Source of the DNA: Bacteroidota bacterium
GTDB lineage: Bacteria > Bacteroidota > Bacteroidia > Bacteroidales > F082
Assembly (NCBI GenBank): GCA_003232915.1
Contig: QIKE01000104.1
Span: 1 to 42,811, forward strand
DNA: 42,811 nt
Direction of reading: 5' to 3'
The notes beneath the pieces were generated by a model that saw nothing but the letters and a program-made list of their open reading frames with translations, did not search any database and had not been told where the DNA came from. The translations under genes and the position numbers were made by a program. Below, piece by piece: positions 15,782 to 37,800 of the stretch; position 1 is the stretch's first letter, and each line of letters begins with the position of its first letter.

Positions 15782-16419
15782 AACTAAAAATTTAATTTAC
15801 AAAATAAACCGAAAGAAATGTATTATGCAAAAATTGCGAAATATTTTATTCAAGTAATCTAAATATTTTTTCGTAACCTACTGCTTACAAGCATAAACAG
15901 CACATATTTTTATAGTAAAAACGGGATAAATTTATACATTTTCATTTTTTGTAATAATATTTATAAACTCATTTACTGATAAAGCCTAGCTAACACGTTG
16001 AAACAAATTATTATCTCATTTATAATCAACATATTAAGTTAAGGCTTTTTTCTACTATTATAAAGAATTAATATAAAACTATAGGAGTCCTCCATAGCAG
16101 AGTTTAACGATAACATAGAGTCGATTATTATAACAGGAACACCATTAACGTATTGTTACAAGGTATGTAAATAATTTAGCATAAACTTAAAATCCATAAG
16201 AAACCTGTAGTACTTGACTTAATAAAACAAATTCGTAGAAAGATAATAGCTATTGGTGTATTTTGATCATCTTGTTATCATTTTTTATAAGTTTTTTTTT
16301 ATTAGTTTTTGCGGCTACAAGACTTTGTTAAATGGAACTATTTATCCTGTTTTGCGTAAAATTGCAATTAGGCAAAACCATCAGGTTTGGTTTTTCCGGC
16401 ACTTGCAAAAAGCGATCAA
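15782..16419. other. AT-rich intergenic region, no gene seen
   Basis: 638 bases between two minus-strand genes. No convincing frame, RNA gene or repeat was found. The only structure I see is the imperfect palindrome CTATAGGAGTCCTCCATAG at about 16079-16097, which could be an operator or chance. Confidence 0.5.
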
Positions 16420-24958: not shown

Positions 24959-25705
24959 ATGAAATTATTAGAAGGTAAAATTGCTCTGATAACAGGAGCT
25001 TCAAGAGGTATTGGCAAAGCAATAGCTATTAAATTTGCTTCGATGGGCGCCAATATCGCATTTAGCGACCTCAACCGCGACGAAAATATGGAAGCTACCG
25101 AAAACGAACTCAATAAAACCGGAATTAAAGCCAAAGGATACGCATCAAATGCTGCTACGTATACTGATGCCGAAAAGTTGATAGTTGATGTGGTAAGCGA
25201 TTTTGGCAGAATTGACGTACTTGTAAATAATGCAGGCATCACACGCGACAATCTTTTGCTTCGAATGACCGAACAAGATTGGGATGCCGTGCTAACAGTT
25301 AACTTGAAATCGGTTTTTAACCTCACAAAAGCTGTTCAACGCACTATGATAAAACAACGTGGCGGCTCCATTATTAATATGAGTTCTGTTGTTGGCGTCA
25401 ACGGTAATGCAGGACAGTCGAATTATTCCGCTTCAAAAGCAGGTATGATTGGCTTTACCAAATCCATTGCTCAGGAATTAGGCTCACGAAATATTCGCTG
25501 TAATGCAATTGCGCCAGGCTTTATCGAAACTGAAATGACACATAAACTACCCGAAGATGCTCGCAAGCTATGGATAAATACCATTCCACTTCGCCGCACC
25601 GGAAAACCCGAAGACGTAGCCAATGTTGCCTCTTTCCTTGCCTCTGAACTTTCGGCTTACGTTTCTGGACAAGTGATTAATGTTTGCGGTGGAATGAGCA
25701 CATAA
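24959..25705 (+). CDS. fabG: 3-oxoacyl-[acyl-carrier-protein] reductase FabG
   Basis: 248 residues, the standard short-chain dehydrogenase length. FabG reduces 3-oxoacyl-ACP with NADPH in fatty acid elongation. Visible motifs are the cofactor loop TGASRGIG (12-19), NNAG (90-93), structural Asn115, and the catalytic set Ser143 (INMSSVVGV), Tyr156 and Lys160 (SNYSASKAG). The FIETEMT and GQVINVCGGM blocks near the C-terminus are FabG-like rather than generic. The gene stands alone with its own promoter motif, away from other fab genes. Specificity is assigned by overall resemblance, since paralogous SDRs are common. Confidence 0.88.
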   Translation: MKLLEGKIALITGASRGIGKAIAIKFASMGANIAFSDLNRDENMEATENELNKTGIKAKGYASNAATYTDAEKLIVDVVSDFGRIDVLVNNAGITRDNLLLRMTEQDWDAVLTVNLKSVFNLTKAVQRTMIKQRGGSIINMSSVVGVNGNAGQSNYSASKAGMIGFTKSIAQELGSRNIRCNAIAPGFIETEMTHKLPEDARKLWINTIPLRRTGKPEDVANVASFLASELSAYVSGQVINVCGGMST

Positions 25706-25900
25706 AAACCTGTTTTTCACATCGAAAACATAAAACGCAAATTACACCATGCAATTGACTTCTCACTTATAGTGCAACTATTATTGTAAAATCTAACAAT
25801 AACTATTGTTCGCCAGTTTTTTATAACCTTAAATCAGCACAAAGTTATTAATGAAAAGGTCAAACTGTTATGTAAAAAAAAAAATTTTTCAGCAAGTCCA

Positions 25901-26244
25901 AAGATGGGCGTTGAATTTATGTACAAACAAGCCATATTACTGGCTAATAAGCTGAAATAGCACTAAACAAATTGAAAAACAAAGGATTGTTAAAGCCATT
26001 TTTCCGCAATTAATTAATTGTTATTTATCTGATGACTTGATTGTTAGCATGTTTTTTCACAATTCTTAAAATGTGTTTTTATTTAAAAAGCATACAAGTT
26101 AATTCATTAAAGTAAGTTGAACACTGCAAGCGGTCTATTTCAACCTGTTTTTTGTTGATTGCTTTTTCAAACAAAGTAAAAATATAAGGTTTCACTATAA
26201 GGATTCCTGAAATAGCGTAACTTTGTATTTACTTGCGGATTTAA
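25901..26244 (+). repeat. Dispersed intergenic repeat, copy A (about 340 bp)
   Basis: Aligning by eye, 25901-26244 and 33985-34326 agree in about four of five positions over their whole length with only small indels, in the same orientation. The best conserved blocks include GCTGAAATAGCACTAAAC, TTATCTGATGACTTGATTGT and the 3' part CCTGAAATA.CGTAACTTTGT. There are no terminal inverted repeats and no long frame. An 18-codon frame at its 5' end (25904-25960) is conserved in both copies. Its 3' end carries TAACTTTG, a -7 promoter match, pointing at the cotransporter gene. It could be a non-coding RNA, a regulatory leader, or the remains of a non-autonomous mobile element. Confidence 0.75.
26218..26225 (+). 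promoter_or_regulatory. Putative -7 promoter element within repeat copy A
   Basis: TAACTTTG matches TAnnTTTG and is conserved in repeat copy B (34300-34307). It lies 80 bases before the cotransporter ATG. Confidence 0.45.
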
Positions 26245-26257
26245 GGTATTATTTTTA

Positions 26258-26265
26258 TACCTTTG
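26258..26265 (+). promoter_or_regulatory. Putative -7 promoter element of the cotransporter gene
   Basis: TACCTTTG matches TAnnTTTG, with a TTG 22 bases upstream (26233-26235). It lies just outside repeat copy A and 40 bases before the ATG at 26305. Confidence 0.5.
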
Positions 26266-26304
26266 AAAAGTATAAACCGTTACAGCTTAAAAATATAATA
26301 AAAT

Positions 26305-28527
26305 ATGAGGAGGCAGCAACGTAAGTTCGGTGCTTTTGCAGGAGTTTTCACACCTTCGATATTGACCATACTCGGGGTAATAATGTACTTGCGTCTCGGT
26401 TGGGTTTCGGGGGTATCAGGTCTGTGGGGTTCGATAATTATTATCTTGTTGGCTCATGTTATTTCGCTGACAACCGGACTAAGTATCTCGTCTATAGCCA
26501 CCGATAAAAAAATCAAAGCCGGAGGAATTTATTACATATTGTCACGCTCCTTAGGTTTGCCAATGGGCGGCTCTATCGGTATTACCTTATTCGTTGGTAC
26601 TGCATTGAGCATCTCAATGTACATTGTCGGTTTTACCGAAAATTTTTTGTCGATAGCGGCTTTACAACATTTGTTTGGTATTGCCGAAGTAAGTACCAAC
26701 GAAATAAGGATAGTAGGAAGCATTGTATTGGCACTGCTTACTATTATCGCATACATCAGCACTGATGCAGCACTAAAAACCCAGTTTTTTATCTTGATAG
26801 CAATATTTTTATCATTGGTTTCCGTTTTTATGGGATTGTTTATGAATATTTCCGAAGTTTCAACATCGGCAAGCAAGATTAGTTCTTTTGTACCTTTTCG
26901 TGATTTCAGTTTTTCCGAAGTTTTTGCTATCTTTTTTCCTGCCGTTACCGGATTTACTGCCGGTGTGGCAATGTCGGGTGATTTGAAAGATCCGAAAAAA
27001 GACATCCCACGAGGTACACTTTTTTCTATTTTAACGGGGCTCGTTGTTTATCTTGTTTTAGCAATTTCGTTTAATTTGTTTGTTGACCGTGGTTTGCTGA
27101 TAGGCGATTATAACTTTTTACTAAAAATATCGTGGCTTCCGTTTTTGGTAATCGCCGGCATTTGGGGAGCAACTCTCTCATCGGCACTTGGTGGCATATT
27201 GGGTGGACCGCGCATTATTCAAGCTATTGCCAAAGATCGTATTGTACCCCGTTTTCTCGGCACCGGTTACGGAATAAACAACGAACCGCGTAGCGCACTC
27301 ATTTTCACTTTTATCCTTTCGGAACTAGGCATTCTAATCGGCGACCTGAACCTTATTGCCGGCATCGTTACTATTTTTTACCTTACCGCATACGGTTTTA
27401 TCAATTTGGCATTTACTTTAGAAAAATGGGCTAGCACCGATTTCCGGCCTGGTTTTAAAATCCCCACGTGGATAGGCATTATAGGTTTTTTTGCAGCTTT
27501 TATGATAATGTTTAAACTTGACGCGCCAGCAATGTTTGCGGCATTTATCATTTTAGGACTAATATTTTTTTATATCCGGAAGAAAAAGCTGCATCTTGAT
27601 ATGGGAGATGTATGGCCTGGCGTTTTGGCCTCAATGATACAAGCAATGTTAAAACGTTACAATACCATAAAAATACCTGAACACCATTGGCGAGCTAACA
27701 TACTTTTGTTCAGCGGAGGAACAGCTAACCGCCCGTACCTTGTTCAATTCAGCAAATATCTCGCAGGCAAATACGGTTTAATTTCCAATATCGACCTTGT
27801 ACTTAAAACGAATTCAAAAATACTTTTTCCAGGGCCAAAGGTGAGTATCCCCGAAGACGAAATGGAAGGCGACGAAAGCATTTTTTCAAAACGACAAGAA
27901 TGTAACAACATTTACGAGGGTATTGAAGCCATTGCAGCCACTTATGGCTTTTCGGGTGTCGAACCGAACACTGTTGTCCTCGGCTGGGGACGACACAGCG
28001 AGAATCCCGTTCGCTTTGCTCAAATGTTACGCTACCTGATGAACCTTGATATGAACATTGTAATGCTTGATTACAACAAAGATAAGGGCTTTGGAACATA
28101 CGAGAAAATAGATGTTTGGCTACGTGGGGGCTCGAATAACGGAAACCTCATACTCTCGTTAATACGTTTTGTACACCTCTCCTACGCGTGGCGAAAAGTA
28201 AAGGTCAGAATACTTATTATCAACTCTACAGGACAAGAACAAAAAATAAGAAAACGTGCTGCCCGCGTTCTTGACAAAATGCGTATCGCAGCGAGTATTC
28301 ACGTTATCGACAACGCTGGTACTAAAAAACCTGTCAATACTATTATCAAAGAATTTTCGGCAGATGCTAACTTGATTTTTCTCGGCCTCGCCGAAGTCCG
28401 TGAAGGATACGAAAACGACTTTATCAGCCGTGCCGACAAATTGTTTGATGACCTAGGAACCATTGCCTTGGTTAAAGCATCCTCGTTTTTTAGCGAACTA
28501 CATATTGGCGACTATTACAAACGATGA
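26305..28527 (+). CDS. Cation-chloride cotransporter (SLC12/CCC family, amino acid-polyamine-organocation superfamily)
   Basis: 740 residues. The first 430 hold about 12 membrane helices with the CCC/APC start KFGAFAGVFTPSILTILGVIMY, the unwound first helix typical of the fold. KAGGIYYILSRSLG and the FPAVTGFTAGVAMSGDLKDP block, characteristic of cation-chloride cotransporters, follow. The C-terminal 300 residues are cytoplasmic and resemble the SLC12 C-terminal domain: HHWRANILLFSGG, VVLGWGRHSENPVRFAQMLR, then RILIINSTGQEQ. Eukaryotic relatives move Na/K/Cl; ion selectivity of this one is unknown. It is monocistronic and preceded by repeat copy A and a promoter motif. The frame ends at TGA 28525-28527. 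Confidence 0.87.
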   Translation: MRRQQRKFGAFAGVFTPSILTILGVIMYLRLGWVSGVSGLWGSIIIILLAHVISLTTGLSISSIATDKKIKAGGIYYILSRSLGLPMGGSIGITLFVGTALSISMYIVGFTENFLSIAALQHLFGIAEVSTNEIRIVGSIVLALLTIIAYISTDAALKTQFFILIAIFLSLVSVFMGLFMNISEVSTSASKISSFVPFRDFSFSEVFAIFFPAVTGFTAGVAMSGDLKDPKKDIPRGTLFSILTGLVVYLVLAISFNLFVDRGLLIGDYNFLLKISWLPFLVIAGIWGATLSSALGGILGGPRIIQAIAKDRIVPRFLGTGYGINNEPRSALIFTFILSELGILIGDLNLIAGIVTIFYLTAYGFINLAFTLEKWASTDFRPGFKIPTWIGIIGFFAAFMIMFKLDAPAMFAAFIILGLIFFYIRKKKLHLDMGDVWPGVLASMIQAMLKRYNTIKIPEHHWRANILLFSGGTANRPYLVQFSKYLAGKYGLISNIDLVLKTNSKILFPGPKVSIPEDEMEGDESIFSKRQECNNIYEGIEAIAATYGFSGVEPNTVVLGWGRHSENPVRFAQMLRYLMNLDMNIVMLDYNKDKGFGTYEKIDVWLRGGSNNGNLILSLIRFVHLSYAWRKVKVRILIINSTGQEQKIRKRAARVLDKMRIAASIHVIDNAGTKKPVNTIIKEFSADANLIFLGLAEVREGYENDFISRADKLFDDLGTIALVKASSFFSELHIGDYYKR

Positions 28528-28887
28528 CGGGGAACGAGGGAGCAAAGTAGCAAGCGACGGAGTGCATAACGCAGAAAATGTTACGAAAAAACTATTTCAT
28601 TGTGCTTATTTTCTACAAAATATGCCGACTTCAGAACTCCACTGCCATATTTTTATTATTATGTATTTGCAATGATTGTATTGCAAAAAGCAGTTGTCGG
28701 AATTATGGTAGTTCAAATGGCTCCGCAAAATTTAAAGTGTTTATTATCTATTCTATTAATAATATTACGTTTGATTTGTAGTTTTGTACTAAAAAGTGGA
28801 TACGGTATGTCAGGATTTTTAAACTTACTTTAATCGGAATAGTTTGCCGTTTTTTCCGGCATTTTTAAATAGGCTAACCAATTGTAT
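28528..28887. other. Intergenic region, no gene; small hairpin near the end
   Basis: 360 bases with short open frames only, none convincing. TGCCG at 28845-28849 pairs with CGGCA at 28857-28861 and is followed by TTTTTAAA, which may be a weak terminator just before the radC promoter. Confidence 0.45.
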
Positions 28888-28895
28888 TACTTTTG
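28888..28895 (+). promoter_or_regulatory. Putative -7 promoter element of radC
   Basis: TACTTTTG matches TAnnTTTG only 6 bases before the radC ATG at 28902, predicting an almost leaderless transcript. Confidence 0.5.
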
Positions 28896-28901
28896 TCTGT
28901 T

Positions 28902-29642
28902 ATGGAAAACCATTACAATAATAAACAGCCCATAAATCAATGGGCCGAAGGCGACAGACCACGAGAAAAAATGCTCAACAATGGAAAATTGTCGTTAAGC
29001 AATACCGAACTACTTGCTATTCTGCTCGGTTCGGGCAACGCTGACGAATCGGCCTTACAACTTGCCAAGAGAATACTTGATGCTGTTAACAACAACCTCA
29101 TCGAATTTGCCAAATTGAGCATCAACGAACTTTTGCGTTTTAAGGGAGTTGGCAAGGCTAAAGCCGTTACCATTGAGGCAGCCCTCGAACTCGGCAAACG
29201 ACGTTTGGCCGAAAAAGCACTTGGTTGCATCCAAATAAAATCAAGCAAACAGGCCTATGAACTTGTTTTATCCGAACTTAGCGATAATTATTATGAAGAT
29301 TTTTATATATTGCTACTCAACAGATCGTCGCATCTTATCCGCAAAGTGCTCGTAAGCTCGGGTGGAATTGGCGATACAATCGTTGACCCTAAAAAAATCT
29401 TTAAAATCGCTATCGACCACAACGCATCCACCTTAATTTTGGCACACAACCATCCAACCAATAAACTAAATCCGAGCAGCCAAGATTTGTCCCTCACAAA
29501 AAAACTCGTGAAAGGCGGCAATATTTTGTCTATATTAATTAGCGATCACATTATTGTAGGTAGCGACAATTATTTTAGTTTTGCCGACAATGGTCTGTTA
29601 GAAGAATTTTATGAGGAAGAAAATCCGGAAGAAATTAGTTAA
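28902..29642 (+). CDS. radC: RadC family protein (JAB/MPN domain)
   Basis: 246 residues from ATG 28902; an in-frame TTG three codons earlier overlaps the promoter motif and is unlikely. The N-terminal helix-hairpin-helix part has WAEGDRPREKML, LSNTELLAILLGSG and FKGVGKAKA. The C-terminal MPN domain has the JAMM metal site: H182-N-H184-P with Ser192 and Asp195 (HNHP..........D spacing). Despite the name, RadC-family proteins are not established DNA repair enzymes; the domain suggests a metal-dependent hydrolase. The next gene, wecB, starts 50 bases after the stop and may be co-transcribed. Confidence 0.92.
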   Translation: MENHYNNKQPINQWAEGDRPREKMLNNGKLSLSNTELLAILLGSGNADESALQLAKRILDAVNNNLIEFAKLSINELLRFKGVGKAKAVTIEAALELGKRRLAEKALGCIQIKSSKQAYELVLSELSDNYYEDFYILLLNRSSHLIRKVLVSSGGIGDTIVDPKKIFKIAIDHNASTLILAHNHPTNKLNPSSQDLSLTKKLVKGGNILSILISDHIIVGSDNYFSFADNGLLEEFYEEENPEEIS

Positions 29643-29692
29643 CGGATTATAACAAATGTATTTTGCCATAATAGTTTAACCGTCTTTTTTTT

Positions 29693-30841
29693 ATGATGAA
29701 AATAGTAACAATCATAGGCGCACGTCCCCAAATTATTAAAGCGGCATCGTTGAATAGGGCTATCAGTGAAAATTTTAAAAACGAAATTTCGGAAGTTATT
29801 GTCCATACCGGGCAACATTACGATAAAAATATGTCGCAAGTGTTTATTGATGAGCTTAAAATACCGCAACCCGATTACAACCTTAATATCGGCAGTGCAA
29901 GTCATGGGTTGCAAACCGCAAAAATGATAATGGGTATTGAGCAAATTTTACTGAAAGAAAAACCAGAATATCTTATACTTTATGGCGACACCAACTCCAC
30001 ACTTGCCGGTGCTATTGCCGCAGCCAAAATCCATATTCCTATTGTGCACATCGAAGCCGGTTTGCGTTCGTACAATAAAAGTATGCCTGAAGAAATCAAC
30101 CGCATTATGTGCGACCATGCTTCTACCTTGCTGTTTTCGCCAACACTTACTGGATACAACAATCTTTTAAAAGAAGGATTTGATAAAGATAGCAAGCCAC
30201 GTTTTACTGCCGACAATCCGGGAATTTTCCATTGTGGCGATGTAATGTACGACAACAGCCTGTTTTTCAATGAAATTGTAAATCCAAAAAGAAACATAAT
30301 AGATATCTTAAACCTGAAAAAAGATAGCTTTTATTTGGCCACCGTTCATCGTGATAATAATACCGACCAGCCCGAAAGACTTAATGCTATTTTCGGTGCT
30401 TTTGATACTTTATCACTCAAAACCAAACTACCTATAATATTGCCACTGCATCCGCGTACCCGAAAATTGCTCAATAAAAATCTTTCTTCGAACTTACTGA
30501 AAAAAATTAAACAAAATCCTTTTTTCCAAATTATATCACCCGTATCTTTTCTCGAAATGAATGTATTGGAAAGCCACTGCAATATGATATTTACAGATTC
30601 GGGTGGCGTACAAAAAGAAGCCTATTTTTTCAAAAAACCGGTTATTGTCCTTCGTCCCGAAACCGAATGGAAAGAAATTGTAGAACAAGGTTGCGGAATT
30701 ATTGCCGATGCCTCTAAAACAGATATTCTCAACGCTTTTGAATATTTTCAACAAGTTAGAAATAAGCTAAATTTTCCTAATATTTTCGGTGACGGAAAAG
30801 CAGGGCGTTTCATTTGCCAAACTATATTGGATAACCGTTGA
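29693..30841 (+). CDS. wecB: UDP-N-acetylglucosamine 2-epimerase (non-hydrolysing)
   Basis: 382 residues from ATG 29693 (a second ATG follows at once). The enzyme interconverts UDP-GlcNAc and UDP-ManNAc for surface polysaccharide. Family motifs in order: IIGARPQIIKAA near the N-terminus (GTRPE in most relatives), VHTGQHYDKNMS, LYGDTNSTLAGA, HIEAGLRS, MPEEINR, TVHRDNN, LHPRTRK, and DSGGVQKEA close to the C-terminus. The GARPQ variant is known among bacterial epimerases. No other polysaccharide genes are adjacent, so the product's destination is unclear. A hairpin terminator overlaps the stop codon. Confidence 0.92.
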   Translation: MMKIVTIIGARPQIIKAASLNRAISENFKNEISEVIVHTGQHYDKNMSQVFIDELKIPQPDYNLNIGSASHGLQTAKMIMGIEQILLKEKPEYLILYGDTNSTLAGAIAAAKIHIPIVHIEAGLRSYNKSMPEEINRIMCDHASTLLFSPTLTGYNNLLKEGFDKDSKPRFTADNPGIFHCGDVMYDNSLFFNEIVNPKRNIIDILNLKKDSFYLATVHRDNNTDQPERLNAIFGAFDTLSLKTKLPIILPLHPRTRKLLNKNLSSNLLKKIKQNPFFQIISPVSFLEMNVLESHCNMIFTDSGGVQKEAYFFKKPVIVLRPETEWKEIVEQGCGIIADASKTDILNAFEYFQQVRNKLNFPNIFGDGKAGRFICQTILDNR

Positions 30842-30862
30842 AAAAAACGGTTTCTTTATTTT
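30833..30862 (+). terminator. Intrinsic terminator of wecB
   Basis: AACCGT (30833-30838) pairs with ACGGTT (30847-30852) and is followed by TCTTTATTTT. The stem begins inside the last codons of wecB. Confidence 0.55.
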
Positions 30863-30972
30863 CAGTTACTAAATTTCGACTCGCCAAGACCATATTTCAA
30901 CAAAAGGAAATTAACAAAACATATAAACTTTTATTCAACAAAAAAGTCGATATATTTTTTTCTACTTAAATA

Positions 30973-31002
30973 TTGTTTATAATGATTATTTTTCTACTTT
31001 TG
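30973..31002 (+). promoter_or_regulatory. Bacteroidetes-type promoter of the rpsF operon
   Basis: TTG at 30973-30975, a 19-base spacer and TACTTTTG at 30995-31002 form a complete -33/-7 pair. The start would be near 31008, leaving a leader of about 40 bases before rpsF. Confidence 0.65.
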
Positions 31003-31048
31003 CATTCCTAAATTTTTATTATTAACAATCAATAAATTAAGTGTAAAC

Positions 31049-31426
31049 ATGATTAACCAGTATGAAACCGTTTTCATTTTAACTCCCGTTTTATCTGATG
31101 ATCAGATAAAGGAAGCGGTAAAAAAGTATGAGAATTTCCTTAAAGAGCATGATGCAGGGATCGTCAACTATGAAAACTGGGGTATGCGTAAATTAGCATA
31201 TCCCATACAGAAAAAATCTACAGGATTTTACAATCTGTTTGAATTCAAAATCGAAGGTACTGACATCCATGATCTGGAAGTTCAATTCAAACGCGACGAA
31301 CGTGTTTTACGTTTTCTGACAGTAAAACTTGACAAACACGCTATAATATACAACGAAAAACGTCGCAAAAAAGACAGATTAAACGTCAAAGACGACAAAA
31401 AAAGTCTTAAAATTGCTACAGTATAA
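31049..31426 (+). CDS. rpsF: 30S ribosomal protein S6
   Basis: 125 residues. S6 binds 16S rRNA together with S18 in the platform of the small subunit. The protein opens with [20 protein letters not shown] and has the family blocks [22 protein letters not shown] and [17 protein letters not shown]. The charged C-terminal extension ([16 protein letters not shown]) is common in Bacteroidetes. It is first in the usual rpsF-rpsR-rplI operon. Confidence 0.96.
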
Positions 31427-31445
31427 AAAGAAAAGCTCTAAGATT

Positions 31446-31712
31446 ATGGCACAGAATTCAGAAATAAAATACTTAACGCCCATTGCAGTAGATACTTCAA
31501 AAAAGAAATACTGCCGCTTTAAGAAAAATCACATCAAATACATTGATTATAAAGATGCGAATTTCTTACTTCGTTTTGTAAACGAACAGGGGAAAATTTT
31601 ACCACGCAGGATTACCGGTACTTCAACCAAGTATCAAAAAAAAGTAGCCAAGGCGATCAAACGAGCCCGTCATCTTGCGTTGATGCCCTACGTAGCTGAT
31701 TTATTAAAATAA
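31446..31712 (+). CDS. rpsR: 30S ribosomal protein S18
   Basis: 88 residues from ATG 31446. The open frame extends upstream to 31413 into the end of rpsF, but the [12 protein letters not shown] start is the typical one. Signature parts are [38 protein letters not shown] and [21 protein letters not shown]. It partners S6 on the small subunit. The Cys-less or Cys-bearing zinc motif of some S18 proteins is reduced here to a single Cys in YCRF. Confidence 0.96.
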
Positions 31713-31727
31713 GGAAGGGAACGAGAA

Positions 31728-32177
31728 ATGGAAATCATTTTAAAAAAGGATGTTACAGGGATAGGATATAAAAACGACCTGATAACAGTAAAAGACGGAT
31801 ATGCCAGGAATTACCTGATTCCAAAAAGAATGGCTGTTGTCGCCATCCCATCAAGCAAAAAGGCACTGGCCGAATTAAAAAAGCAGCAAGCCTATAAAGA
31901 AGAAAAAGTCAGAAAAGAAGCCGAAACCAATGCTGCTGCAATCAAAGGTATTCAATTGACCATTGGTGTAAAAGCTAGTTCTACCGGCAAAATATTTGGC
32001 TCTGTCAACAATATTATGGTAGCCAATGCCATTAAAGAACAGAAAAAATTTGATATCGACCGTAAGAAAATTTTCGTTAACGATGAACATATCAAAGAAG
32101 TTGGTAAATATAAAGCTGTTGTGAAATTTCACAAAGATATTCAAGTTGAAATAGACCTTGATGTAAAAGCCGAATAA
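31728..32177 (+). CDS. rplI: 50S ribosomal protein L9
   Basis: 149 residues, normal for L9. The N-terminal rRNA-binding domain reads MEIILKKDVTGIGYKNDLIT and VKDGYARNYLIPKRMA. A long charged connecting helix follows (KKQQAYKEEKVRKEAETNAA), then the C-terminal domain with GKIFGSVNNIMVANAI and a closing VEIDLDV. It is third in the rpsF operon, 15 bases after rpsR. Confidence 0.96.
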   Translation: MEIILKKDVTGIGYKNDLITVKDGYARNYLIPKRMAVVAIPSSKKALAELKKQQAYKEEKVRKEAETNAAAIKGIQLTIGVKASSTGKIFGSVNNIMVANAIKEQKKFDIDRKKIFVNDEHIKEVGKYKAVVKFHKDIQVEIDLDVKAE

Positions 32178-32191
32178 TTTTTTTGTTTTTG

Positions 32192-32199
32192 TATCTTCG
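32192..32199 (+). promoter_or_regulatory. Putative -7 promoter element of the SPOUT methyltransferase gene
   Basis: TATCTTCG, a variant of TAnnTTTG also seen before Bacteroidetes genes, lies 7 bases before the preferred GTG start at 32207. It implies a near-leaderless transcript independent of the rpsF operon. Confidence 0.4.
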
Positions 32200-32206
32200 C
32201 AGAACT

Positions 32207-32974
32207 GTGATTAACAAAGCAAAAGTAAAATTTGTCAACTCCCTTAGACTTGGAAAATTTCGCCGGTACGAACAATGTTTTACTGCCGAAGGGAATACCC
32301 TTGTTATAGACTTGATAAAAAGCAAGTTAGCCATAAGAGAATTTTTTGCAACAGAAAAATGGGTTTTACAACATCGCCATTTGATAGAAAAGACTCCCTA
32401 TACTATTGTTGTTGAAAGTGAGCTTAAAAAAATCAGTAACCTTAAAAATCCTTCGGAAGTGATGGCAGTTGTTAACATGCCAGAAAACAAAATTCCGGAT
32501 ATTAGGCTTATACACGAATGGTCACTCGTACTTGACAATATACGCAACCCCGGAAACCTCGGTACCATTATCCGTACTGCCGATTGGTTTGGCTTCCGAA
32601 GTATCTTTTGTTCTAACGAAACTGTAGATGTTTATAATCCTAAAGTTATACAAGCCACAATGGGATCGTTATCAAAAGTAGAATTGTTTTACACAAATTT
32701 AATAGAATTGTTTGCTCAAAAGCCCCCGAATTTTCCCGTTTACGGAACATTATTGCAAGGAACGAATATTAACAAACTGCAACATCCGCAAAAAGGATTT
32801 GTCATCGTCGGCAGCGAAGCACACGGAATATCTAACGAACTACTACCTTATGTCAATCGTAAAATTACCATCCCCTCCTCCCCCACTGCCGCTGCCGAAT
32901 CGCTCAATGCATCTATTGCCACCGCTATTGTTTGCTTCGCCCTTACACGTGATGAATTCGACACTAAGCGATAG
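32207..32974 (+). CDS. TrmH/SpoU-family RNA 2'-O-methyltransferase
   Basis: 255 residues from GTG 32207; a TTG at 32183 gives 8 extra residues but overlaps the promoter motif. The opening INKAKVKFVNSLRLGKFRR is the usual first helix of these enzymes (I....K.I..L...K.R). An N-terminal substrate-binding part is followed by the SPOUT domain: LDNIRNPGNLGTIIRTADWFG (motif 1), VGSEAHGIS (motif 2) and IPSSPTAAAESLNASIATAI (motif 3). It methylates ribose 2'-OH in rRNA or tRNA; the target nucleotide cannot be told. It follows rplI by 29 bases. Confidence 0.9.
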   Translation: MINKAKVKFVNSLRLGKFRRYEQCFTAEGNTLVIDLIKSKLAIREFFATEKWVLQHRHLIEKTPYTIVVESELKKISNLKNPSEVMAVVNMPENKIPDIRLIHEWSLVLDNIRNPGNLGTIIRTADWFGFRSIFCSNETVDVYNPKVIQATMGSLSKVELFYTNLIELFAQKPPNFPVYGTLLQGTNINKLQHPQKGFVIVGSEAHGISNELLPYVNRKITIPSSPTAAAESLNASIATAIVCFALTRDEFDTKR

Positions 32975-33638
32975 TAAATTATCTTTTAGTTAATTTTCTT
33001 ATTGTCTTCAATGGAAAAGCCATTTTGTTAAATATTGATTGTTAAAAAAACGTCAATTTATTCGTTACGCTCGTTTGAGGGACTAATCATTTATTTTAAT
33101 AAACTGTTAAATTTCAACTTAGCAAGCCTCGAACTTGAAGTTTTATGATTAGATACTGCAAAAATCAGGCGTCTTCTTGCATATACTCCTTTGCTGTAAT
33201 CGACACAATGTTTCAAAAATTTATTAACAATTATTTATAAATTGCTGCATAACGATAATTTCTATTTTCGTCTCATACAGAAATATACATTAGTTTGTCA
33301 GCCCGTCATAAAAATGCCGGATATTTCTTTTTTGATAATTGAAGGCAAGAACAGTTATAATAGTTTCTATTTGAACCTGTTAAATTTCGTAAAATTTGTT
33401 ATACTTAAAACGGAACAAATTGATACATTTCTATAAAAGAAAATATGGCATGCAAAATATTATGAAACCCCTGACAAATTTCATGAGGCCGTAACCGGAT
33501 TTTCCCGGTCATTTAATCAAATAATTAAAAATACAAGGCCGATTTAAAGAATTTATTGCCATGAAACCTTCATAACGAATAAATTCGACACACAGAAGAA
33601 TGATTATAGAACTCCGAAGGAGCGTGATATTAATAGCC

Positions 33639-33692
33639 ACGGGTGTTAAACCTGTGGAATAATGGCTTTGCCATTCCACGGGTTAAACCCGT
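33639..33692. repeat. Long imperfect inverted repeat (CCACGGGTT..AACCCGT type)
   Basis: The arm 33639-33666 (ACGGGTGTTAAACCTGTGGA, continuing to ATGGC) pairs with 33670-33692 (GCCATTCCACGGGTTAAACC, then CGT) around a TTT loop. The two arms differ by small insertions in the left one. Each arm also contains its own ACGGGTT-AACCCGT mini-palindrome. The preceding text ACTCCGAAGGAGCGTGATA and the CCACGGGTTAAACCCGT core look like dispersed intergenic palindromes that I recall from other Bacteroidetes genomes, which would be REP-like elements. That recollection is not checked. Confidence 0.6.
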
Positions 33693-33722
33693 AGTACAAA
33701 AAATGTCAGCACCGTTTTGGCG

Positions 33723-33750
33723 TAATTTTCGATTGCGGAGCCGAAAATTA
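33723..33750. repeat. Hairpin TAATTTTCG..CGAAAATTA
   Basis: A perfect 9-bp stem (33723-33731 with 33742-33750) around the loop ATTGCGGAGC. It sits 30 bases after the long inverted repeat and may belong to the same palindromic element. Confidence 0.5.
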
Positions 33751-33984
33751 TGACAAAACATAAAACTGAATTGATCAGCAAGATACAAAATTATAAACAG
33801 ATGAAGTTCCGATTTTTTAAAAATGAAAATGTCCTGATTTATCCCGTGTGATGTATAATTAAATTCCTTTGTTTTCACCGGTTTTATCATAGATATTAAA
33901 TCAATTCCACCCTTTACATTTTTCATCCGGAAAACGTGTAAATTTTATCATATCTGTAACGGAAAAATGGAGCTATCAAGGCAG

Positions 33985-34326
33985 AAGATGATTATTGAAA
34001 TTATATACAAACAAGCTATGTTGCAGGCTAATATGCTGAAATAGCACTAAACGAATTGAAAAACAAAGGATTGTTATGCACATGTTTTTGCAATTAATTA
34101 ATAGTTATTTATCTGATGACTTGATTGTTAACATGTTTTTTCCAATTCGTAAAATAGATTTAGATTTAAAAAGCATATAGGTTAATAATTCAAAGTAAGT
34201 TGAAAACGCAAGTCGGCTATTTCAACCATTTTTTTGTTAATTGTATCTTCAAATAAAGTAAAAATTTAAGGTTTTACTCTAAGTATTCCTGAAATAACGT
34301 AACTTTGTGTTTATTTGGGGATTTAA
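33985..34326 (+). repeat. Dispersed intergenic repeat, copy B (about 340 bp)
   Basis: Second copy of the sequence at 25901-26244, same orientation, about four of five bases shared. It keeps the 18-codon frame (33988-34044) with the same TAG stop, the central block TTATCTGATGACTTGATTGT and the 3' promoter-like TAACTTTG (34300-34307). Here the next gene begins 520 bases further on, and the GC-rich folded element lies between. Confidence 0.75.
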
Positions 34327-34452
34327 ATCTTTTTTTTTAACTGTTTTTAAGATAACTTTTAGGGCAATAATGTGTGCCGCATTTCAAGATTATGTCTTTA
34401 TATTACACGATATGTTTAATTATGGTTCAATTGCTTTGTTTACAATTAATTG

Positions 34453-34847: not shown

Positions 34848-37800
34848 ATGAAAAAGTTCAAAGACTGGTTTTATAATTTGAAAATAAAGTATAAATTGTC
34901 GCTTGCGGCCATTGTTGTAATAGCCAACCTATTACTTTTATTATGGATTGCAAGTTTTTTTTACCGTACAACTTCTGTATTTAGCATGATGATTGATACG
35001 GAAAGTTATCATACAGTGAAATTTCAGAAAGGGCTAGAAGCTTTTCAGGTATACGTTAATAGTGGTGAGGAAAAATATTTTCAAAAAGCCATTGATAATA
35101 TCAAACAAGCCAATGCAATAGCCATTCCTATTCTTTCTGCAGATAGTATCGCACAACATGAAAGCAGCAAAAAATTGATCGAATCTTTTTACAAGTATTA
35201 TGGTCCGTTGTTTAATAACAACAAGAAGCAAATCGGCTTGATGGCCGAGAGGATTTATCTTTTTGTTCGACTTGGTTTATCACCCATTCAAGATATTTTT
35301 CGTATCGTACGGTCGGGACTTGACACAGGGGAAGAAACTTTGTCGCTAATGCATCGCTACAAAAAAACGGGCGACAAAAGTATTTTAACAAAGCTGAACA
35401 ATAAATCGGAGTTTATTTCTGTATTTTATAAAAAATATTCAGCGAAAGTCGATGAATTTAGAGAATTTGGAATGCGTTTGTTGCTGTATTTGAATTTGAT
35501 AATAATTATTTTACTTTCGGTTTTGAGTTATTATGTTATTTTACAAATTTCGGGTTCTATAGAAAAGCCCGTAAACAATTTGGTTAAAAATTTCCGTGAA
35601 ATCGAAAAAGGAAATCTTTCTGTAACTATAAAACAGCATTCAAAAGACGAAATAGGGATGTTGGTAGCTTCTTTTAACGGTATTCAAGCCAACCTTCAAA
35701 AATTTTTAATATATGCAAAAAAAATCGCATCGGGAAATTATTCGGTACGTCTGCAAGCTCGTTCCGAAAAGGACGAAATCTCTGTTGCATTGAATGTTAT
35801 GGCCGCAAACCTTGAAAAAAACGAAAAGCAAATTAACAACAATAACTGGTTAAAAGACGGGCTAAGCGAGTTGAACAAAATGATAAATAGCGATTTGACC
35901 TTGGAAAAGTTAGCAACAGAATCTTTGTCTTTTTTAGTGAAATATACCGAATCGTTTACGGGTGCTTTGTATTTGAACGATGACGGCAAAATGCATTTGA
36001 AAGCTACCTATGCTCTTGACAAGTCGAAAGTTGCAAAACGTATAATAAGTGGCAACGGATTAATTGGGCAAGTATGGGCCGATAGAAAATTACTGCAAAT
36101 TAAAGGAACTGATAATTTGGGAGTGGAAACATTTTCGTCAACGGCACGCTACAAAGCCAAAGAAGCGGTGATTTTGCCATTAACAATAGGTGAAGAGAAA
36201 TTAATTGGGATATTGGAAATTTCGTCAACTGATGAATTATCAATTTTACGATTAGAGTTTATCCGACAGGCATCTGCTGTGTTGGCCATAGCTATGCAGG
36301 CGGCCTTATCGCGTCAAAAAATTGCGGAATTGCTTTCTTATACACAACAACAGACCGAAGAGCTTGAAACCCAACAAGAAGAATTGCGTGCAACTAATGC
36401 CGAACTTGAAGAGCAAACGATTGTTTTGCGTGAAAACGAGAAGAAACTACAGATACGGCAAGAAGAGTTGAAAGTGTCAAACGAAGAACTCGAAGCGCGT
36501 ACACACGACCTCGAAATGCAGCGAAAAGAAATTCTAAAGAAAAACAAAGATCTCGAAATCGCACAAAAGGAAATTGAACTAAAAGCCAATGATCTTGAAC
36601 AAGCCAGCCGTTACAAATCGGAATTTTTGGCCAATATGTCTCACGAACTACGTACTCCGCTAAACTCTATGTTGATACTTTCGAAAGACTTGAGCAACAA
36701 CAAAAAAGGTAATCTTTCCGACGATCAAGTGGAATCGGCTGCAATTATATACAACGCAGGAAACGATTTGCTAAATTTAATAAATGACATCCTTGATTTG
36801 TCGAAAATAGAATCGGGAAAAATGCAAATCAGTCCCGTTACTACTTCCGTTTCGGAAATTGTTACCGGCTTGCAAAACATGTTTTCGCAGGTTGCTCAAG
36901 AACGTGGTATTTATTTTAAAACTCAAGTGGACGAAGATATGCCTGCAGTTTTGTTTACCGATAGACAACGACTCGATCAAATTTTGAAAAACCTGATATC
37001 CAATGCGTTGAAGTTTACAAGACAAGGTGGTGTTACCATCAGGTTTCGTTATGACGACAATTCCGAATGGGTTGAGCAGCAAACTGCCGGCAATTTTTTT
37101 TGTGTGGATGTAATTGATACGGGTATAGGTATTCACAAAGACAAACAACGCGCAATTTTTGAAGCTTTTCAACAAGCCGACGGTAGTATTTCGCGTAATT
37201 TTGGAGGCACAGGACTGGGATTGTCTATTTCGCGACAGCTTGCCAAAATGCTTGGAGGCAGTATTGGCTTAAAAACCGAATATGGCAAAGGTTCTACTTT
37301 TACCGTTTGCATTCCGGCCCGTTTAGATGGTAAAATGCCTAAGCCGGTTAGAAAAACTGATAAAATACAAAAACCGGTAACCCAAGTGAAAACCGGAATG
37401 AAAAAAGAATTGGTACAGCAACCTGCGGAAGAGAAAGTTGAACCTGTCGTTTTTATTCCCGACGACAGAAACGCTATCAAACCAAACGACATTGTTTTGC
37501 TAATTATTGAAGACGACTACCGTTTTGCCAAGATTTTGGTTAAACAAAGTCGTGAAAACGGTTTTAAATGCATTGTTACCTCCACCGGCGAAGAAGGACT
37601 TGTGCTAGCCGAAAAATATAAACCCAATGCTATCAGCCTCGACATTAAATTACCCGGTATTGATGGCAATAAGGTTTTGAAACTGCTTAAGGAAAATCCT
37701 TCTACCCGCCATATTCCCGTTCAAGTACTATCGGGTATCGACGAAAAGGATGAACTTACGGACAAAGGCATTTTGGGCTTTCTTCCCAAGCCCTTGTCAC

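Follow-up and report, generated by a model that had tools for sequence, protein, structure and literature searches.

What is a non-coding sequence of roughly 340 bp that stands twice, 8 kb apart and in the same orientation, in a 42,811-nucleotide stretch of DNA from a Bacteroidota bacterium (contig QIKE01000104.1; the whole stretch is called the window here)? A preliminary description, made from the letters alone, placed the repeat at 25901-26244 (copy 1) and 33985-34326 (copy 2) and suggested either selection on parts of it or an old mobile element. We find that both copies are almost certainly the defunct right ends of a single IS1380-family insertion sequence, which spread in this lineage by transposition and then decayed. 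The mobile-element reading is borne out by a decayed transposase, element ends and target duplications. The description had itself named a result that would count against its view, remains of a decayed protein gene or of a known insertion sequence, and such remains are exactly what turned up.

Copies of the repeat in the host genome

Alignment and BLAST agree on two same-orientation copies near the positions first given, alike in about four of five positions; the pair shares 85% identity across 334 bp (query 11-344, E 3.6e-103). Both are intergenic, as described, with recognisable genes on either side of each. The pair is thus real, and its number was understated. In the host assembly (2.53 Mb in 162 contigs, 86.6% complete) a BLAST-type search returned at least 23 matches, a lower bound since scoring covered 40 of the 72 first-look candidates. 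These matches represent at least 21 copies, because those at C4 9644 and 10304 belong to one copy interrupted by inserted sequence, as do those at C25 7112 and 7573. The right limit of the repeat is constant, with 21 of 21 copies extending to query 343-344, and the left starts vary from 1 to 303. A retro-element with 5' truncation, which a fixed 3' end with variable 5' starts would suggest, was rejected in view of the upstream transposase, the terminal repeats and the target duplications described below.

Transposase remnants

In four copies (on C14, C16, C25 and C4) homology continues for hundreds of bases upstream of the repeat, into a frame-broken IS1380 transposase. The first ~50 bp of the repeat are the last codons of this decayed gene, and the next ~290 bp are a non-coding tail with the right terminal repeat; the statement that no gene explains the sequence therefore fails for its first part. 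Of the four open pieces that precede the repeat, three are hit by the NCBIfam model for IS1380, NF033539 (E 5.7e-08, 6.8e-05 and 0.034), and the fourth is not. Scanned over the whole genome, the same model gives 15 matches, none above its 180-bit cut-off. Three of them overlap the start of the repeat, at C14:31155-32063 (76.1 bits, 12 internal stops), C4:9180-9671 (62.6 bits) and C25:6939-7139 (18.3 bits), and a fourth, on C16 (44.6 bits), stops 256 bp short of it. The matches next to the repeat stay below 180 bits because they are broken or partial, and no single frame spanning the model was found in the assembly, the best match covering model positions 106-376 of 419. The element has an IS1380-type transposase, of which the window copies keep just the final codons.

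Element ends and target-site duplications

The right end of the repeat reads ...TTGCGGATTTAAGG. Seven of the 19 copies taken as loci have a left end, CCTTAAATCNGCACAAAGTTATTAAC, further upstream, and all seven are rows of the left-end profile. Copy 1 really begins at 25827, and the preliminary description missed the terminal repeats, stating that there were none, because this end sits 74 bp before the start it had assigned. A repeat finder run on the stretch pairs inverted arms at 25826-25839 and 26234-26247, which are 93% complementary. The features of copy 1 are as follows.

25822-25826, no strand: left half of the target-site duplication (TATAA), read from the sequence, 4/5 paired with 26247-26251.
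25827-25891, forward strand: left end of the IS1380-type element, starting with the left terminal inverted repeat CCTTAAATCAGCACAAAGTTA; left-end profile, E 3.8e-11, copy 1 itself being among the 11 rows of that profile.
25895-25955, forward strand: remnant of the last transposase codons, with TGA at 25953-25955; homology to the C14 copy from 25895 and alignment with less decayed transposase ends, the left limit being approximate.
25956-26246, forward strand: 3' non-coding tail including the right terminal repeat, 291 bp; alignment with the second lineage and relatives (see below), tail profile 25967-26246.
25983-25996, forward strand: decayed 14-bp post-stop motif; from the sequence, the motif being defined in relatives.
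26218-26246, forward strand: right terminal inverted repeat, TAACTTTGTATTTACTTGCGGATTTAAGG; from the sequence, the inverted arms and relatives with an end of the TGCGGATTTRAGG type.
26247-26251, no strand: right half of the target-site duplication (TATTA); duplication test of seven copies.

Given both ends and the flanking TATAA and TATTA, which agree at four of five bases, copy 1 is a 420-bp element (25827-26246) with an internal deletion, which took away the rest of the transposase gene.

The duplications hold over the seven two-ended copies as a set: 24 of 35 positions agree, where re-pairing the flanks gives 12.7 (p 0.0008). When a script reads the flanks, with one right end taken two bases short, the count is 23 of 35 and the re-paired value 12.0 (p 0.0008). 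Agreement is maximal at the predicted boundary, where it reaches 23 positions; none of nine other offsets exceeds 16. Five of the seven copies match at four or more of the five bases. A short target-site duplication as in the IS1380 family, here of 5 bp, is therefore found over the seven-copy set, and CC-starting terminal inverted repeats are found in copy 1 and the other two-ended copies, copy 2 having the right end only. In one truncated copy (L006, G000:C7) the repeat is abutted, just before the match at 1501, by an open frame that to the eye resembles the start of what we take to be an IS200-type Y1 transposase.

A second lineage, relatives and short copies

The host genome holds a second, better-kept IS1380 lineage on contigs C97, C10, C88, C118, C140, C91, C51 and C45. 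Its aligned pieces are mostly 82-97% alike, and contig ends cut it on 7 of the 8 contigs, as would be expected of recent multi-copy elements. It has the same layout as the window element and a tail that can be aligned with the window repeat. On C88 its transposase runs to a natural stop, ...GRQWILKSYTRRPYKQLTL; the sequence around and after this stop aligns with the window repeat, so that the reading frames in the window close at TGA 25953-25955 and 34037-34039.

Named genomes scanned with the second-lineage transposase yielded 33 loci, 41-79% identical, 32 of them under names that we take to be Bacteroidota and one labelled Spirochaetae. Terminal repeats of the CCT....TCCGCA type were found in 12 of 24 loci tried; no undamaged copy of the window element was found that would give its length, and these 12 relatives measure 1636-1712 bp. 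Their tails span 244-307 bp in 11 cases and 352 bp in the twelfth, which has an early stop. Duplications of 5 bp, which were themselves taken into account in ranking candidate ends, match at 5/5 bases in L062, L063 and L083, at 4/5 in three relatives, 3/5 in four and 2/5 in one, and in the last, at a contig end, the duplication is unreadable. The three with perfect duplications, L063 (Bacteroidales bacterium GH49), L062 (Flavobacteriaceae MAG 5_8_m_bin18) and L083 (Subsaximicrobium wynnwilliamsii), have similar ends (CCTCAAATCCGCA, CCTTAAATCCGCA or CCTAACATCCGCA) and follow the plan of the window element, with a 244-264-bp tail and the motif after the stop; outside the terminal repeat and this motif of 14 bp, their tails have little in common with the window copies. 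Table 2 of PMC3281130 lists the IS1380-family element IS1247 with 1672 bp, an inverted repeat of 16/13 and a 5-bp duplication. Shared with the family are transposase homology, the CC-starting terminal repeats seen here, the 5-bp duplication and the 1.64-1.71 kb of the relatives. Unlike such elements, the window copies lack nearly all of the transposase gene and, judged from their sequence, would be unable to mobilise themselves.

Could the short two-ended copies (310-426 bp) be a non-autonomous family, resembling miniature inverted-repeat transposable elements (MITEs), that an IS1380 transposase such as that of the second lineage still mobilises in trans? Four copies, L001, L012, L015 and L016, are short (420, 383, 426 and 310 bp), have both ends and no transposase gene, and carry duplications matching at 4, 5, 4 and 4 of five bases. 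Copy 1 is short and gene-free, with two terminal repeats and a 4/5 duplication. The second lineage, moreover, has open transposase pieces, most of them at contig ends and mostly 89-97% alike, and similar terminal repeats. We nevertheless consider such a family unlikely. A MITE family would consist of one amplified unit, the same in length and interior throughout, whereas these copies vary in length, in internal make-up and in their left and right parts, as expected of independent deletions, and so do not form one such unit. The copies lie ~10% off the majority base, the terminal repeats of the two lineages are unlike at several positions, and no one frame that covers the IS1380 model was found in the assembly.

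Divergence and RNA structure

Were parts of the repeat kept by selection, as the preliminary description suggested from blocks that seemed nearly invariant while others drifted? Up to 19 copies differ from the majority base by a mean of 10% over 281 columns, namely those with at least six copies (roughly query 66-346; the first ~65 query positions are held by fewer than six). Variation among 15-column blocks is no different from that of shuffled columns (p 0.54), and divergence over this part is even. Single sites are over-dispersed relative to the binomial (chi2 521, df 280), which could come from subfamilies or mutation bias. Covariation is scarce, 1 of 54 predicted pairs having changed on both sides in nine own copies. 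Given the even block divergence and the single double change, the copies look like neutral relics, and selection on parts of the repeat finds no support among the own-genome copies.

With hardly any covariation in the nine copies, and no structure in 14 aligned tails (11 of them from relatives), a poorly alignable set in which no pairs were predicted, an RNA structure of the tail was rejected. No Rfam family matched within the window at gathering thresholds, and no tRNA or tmRNA was found there. A conserved non-coding RNA or regulatory element serving the host might be suspected from the many copies, from the placement of the window ones between genes, and from TAACTTTG in the repeat, which resembles what we take to be the Bacteroidota -7 promoter consensus. 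We regard it as extremely improbable in view of the empty Rfam search, the even divergence, the scarce covariation and the lack of a consensus structure, and fixed ends, transposase remnants and duplications already account for the repeat. The tails of 11 relatives are poorly alignable; the parts that stand out as conserved are the terminal repeat and, soon after the transposase stop, a motif of 14 bp.

Post-stop motif and left-end hairpin

This motif, RGGATARNTAYGYC, lies about 25-60 nt past the transposase stop in the tails of Bacteroidota IS1380 relatives. Its matrix was trained on 20 instances, mostly named relatives with some own copies, and scores of those loci are therefore circular. 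The motif (score at least 8) occurs in 13 of 42 held-out tails, where it begins 24-57 nt past the stop, and in none of 42 control stretches; many of the 29 held-out tails without it belong to other IS1380 subgroups or have broken frames. The motif was rejected as a covarying stem-loop, its value of 0.240 over 38 non-redundant windows lying below the 0.270 reached in 60 column shuffles, whose mean was 0.197. For this set of windows 17 duplicate, near-duplicate or decayed own loci were left out, then tails scoring below 8 or short around the motif, giving 41 windows and 38 after removal of those more than 80% alike. A hairpin at the motif was likewise rejected, for of 15 single folds only L059 (z -2.47) fell under -1, the L084 row being disregarded.

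At the other end of the element, an inverted repeat of diverse sequence lies ~25-75 bp from the left end in L054-L056, L062, L063, L067, L070-L072, L074, L083, L038 and L045. Folding gives a strong hairpin in 13 of 13 less decayed elements (z -2.7 to -8.3), comprising 11 of the 12 relatives with ends and two of the four second-lineage left ends. The left end of window copy 1 folds without a strong hairpin (z 0.87). The hairpin may control transposase expression or bind a dimer. A search of the IS1380 literature, which stopped short of full texts, returned no description of motif or hairpin, and we therefore make no claim of absence. Tentatively, and with more doubt than confidence, one may picture the tail motif RGGATARNTAYGYC as an accessory site for the transposase or a host factor, the short two-ended copies as moved in trans, and the window repeat as a non-autonomous element.

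Copy 2 and the neighbouring genes

Copy 2 retains 33948-34328, and its final two bases are AT instead of GG. Its features are the following.

33948-34039, forward strand: remnant of the transposase end, with TGA at 34037-34039; BLAST to the C14, C25 and C4 copies from 33948.
34040-34328, forward strand: 3' non-coding tail and right end, 289 bp; tail profile 34051-34326 and sequence.
34067-34080, forward strand: 14-bp post-stop motif; from the sequence, the motif being defined in relatives.

Upstream of copy 2 a SpoU methylase gene ends at 32974 and downstream a hybrid histidine-kinase gene starts at 34848; a mechanical frame of 101 amino acids from 34307 overlaps the final bases of the copy. 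A different dispersed repeat family, with a core like repeated CCACGGGTTAAACCCGTGG, occupies about 33390-33861 of the window and ends ~90 bp upstream of the start of copy 2 homology. Related sequence is found inside the C4 element copy, on C14 and twice on C11 (L009/L027, L017), and a 35-bp piece of this family matches window positions 15910-15944.

Copy 1 lies between an SDR/FabG-like gene that ends at 25705 and an amino-acid-permease-like gene that starts at 26305, 58 bp past the right end at 26246. With this spacing, the right end might serve as an outward promoter for the permease-like gene, in the way that IS1380 ends drive resistance genes in other settings. Outward promoters are reported for the IS1380-family elements ISEcp1 and ISPme1 in PMC9330008, which also tabulates IS612-IS616 and IS942 under the IS1380 family with cfiA in Bacteroides fragilis. 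By eye, the right end of copy 1 has no -33 box at the usual distance and no complete promoter, and TAACTTTG is part of the terminal repeat region and missing from the right ends of 11 aligned relatives. A promoter role is in our view decidedly unlikely.

Discussion

The repeat is of an already known kind, right-end fragments of an insertion sequence of the IS1380 family, which is common in bacteria. An intact ancestor would have measured ~1.65 kb and comprised a left repeat, a 5' leader, one transposase gene, a non-coding tail of ~290 bp and a right repeat. Its own transposase would have mobilised it at both ends, leaving 5-bp duplications. Copy 1 would then have lost its interior by deletion, with 420 bp left including both ends, and copy 2 probably lost its left part.

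Several results weigh against this explanation. No intact copy of the window element was found, and no transposase match in the 86.6% complete assembly reaches 180 bits. Pfam matched none of the four pieces upstream of the repeat. The left-end profile found no left end for copy 2 in the window, and two of the seven two-ended copies, L019 (1/5) and L005 (2/5), have no target duplication. Half of the relatives' loci tried (12/24) showed no ends of the type sought, and those ends that were found had been ranked partly by their duplications. In a search of 100 genomes including the host's own, with at most seven candidates per genome scored, just 3 of the 99 others gave a match to the repeat, each a short one of 32-44 bp.

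We nonetheless hold that the likeness of the copies reflects descent from an active element and not selection on the host. The window copies are most likely inert and do nothing now, and the repeat is most likely ordinary genomic debris, not new functional sequence. The ends of the element are now defined and can be used for masking in the host genome. The left-end hairpin and the post-stop motif, common to Bacteroidota IS1380 elements, could guide work on the control of transposition.

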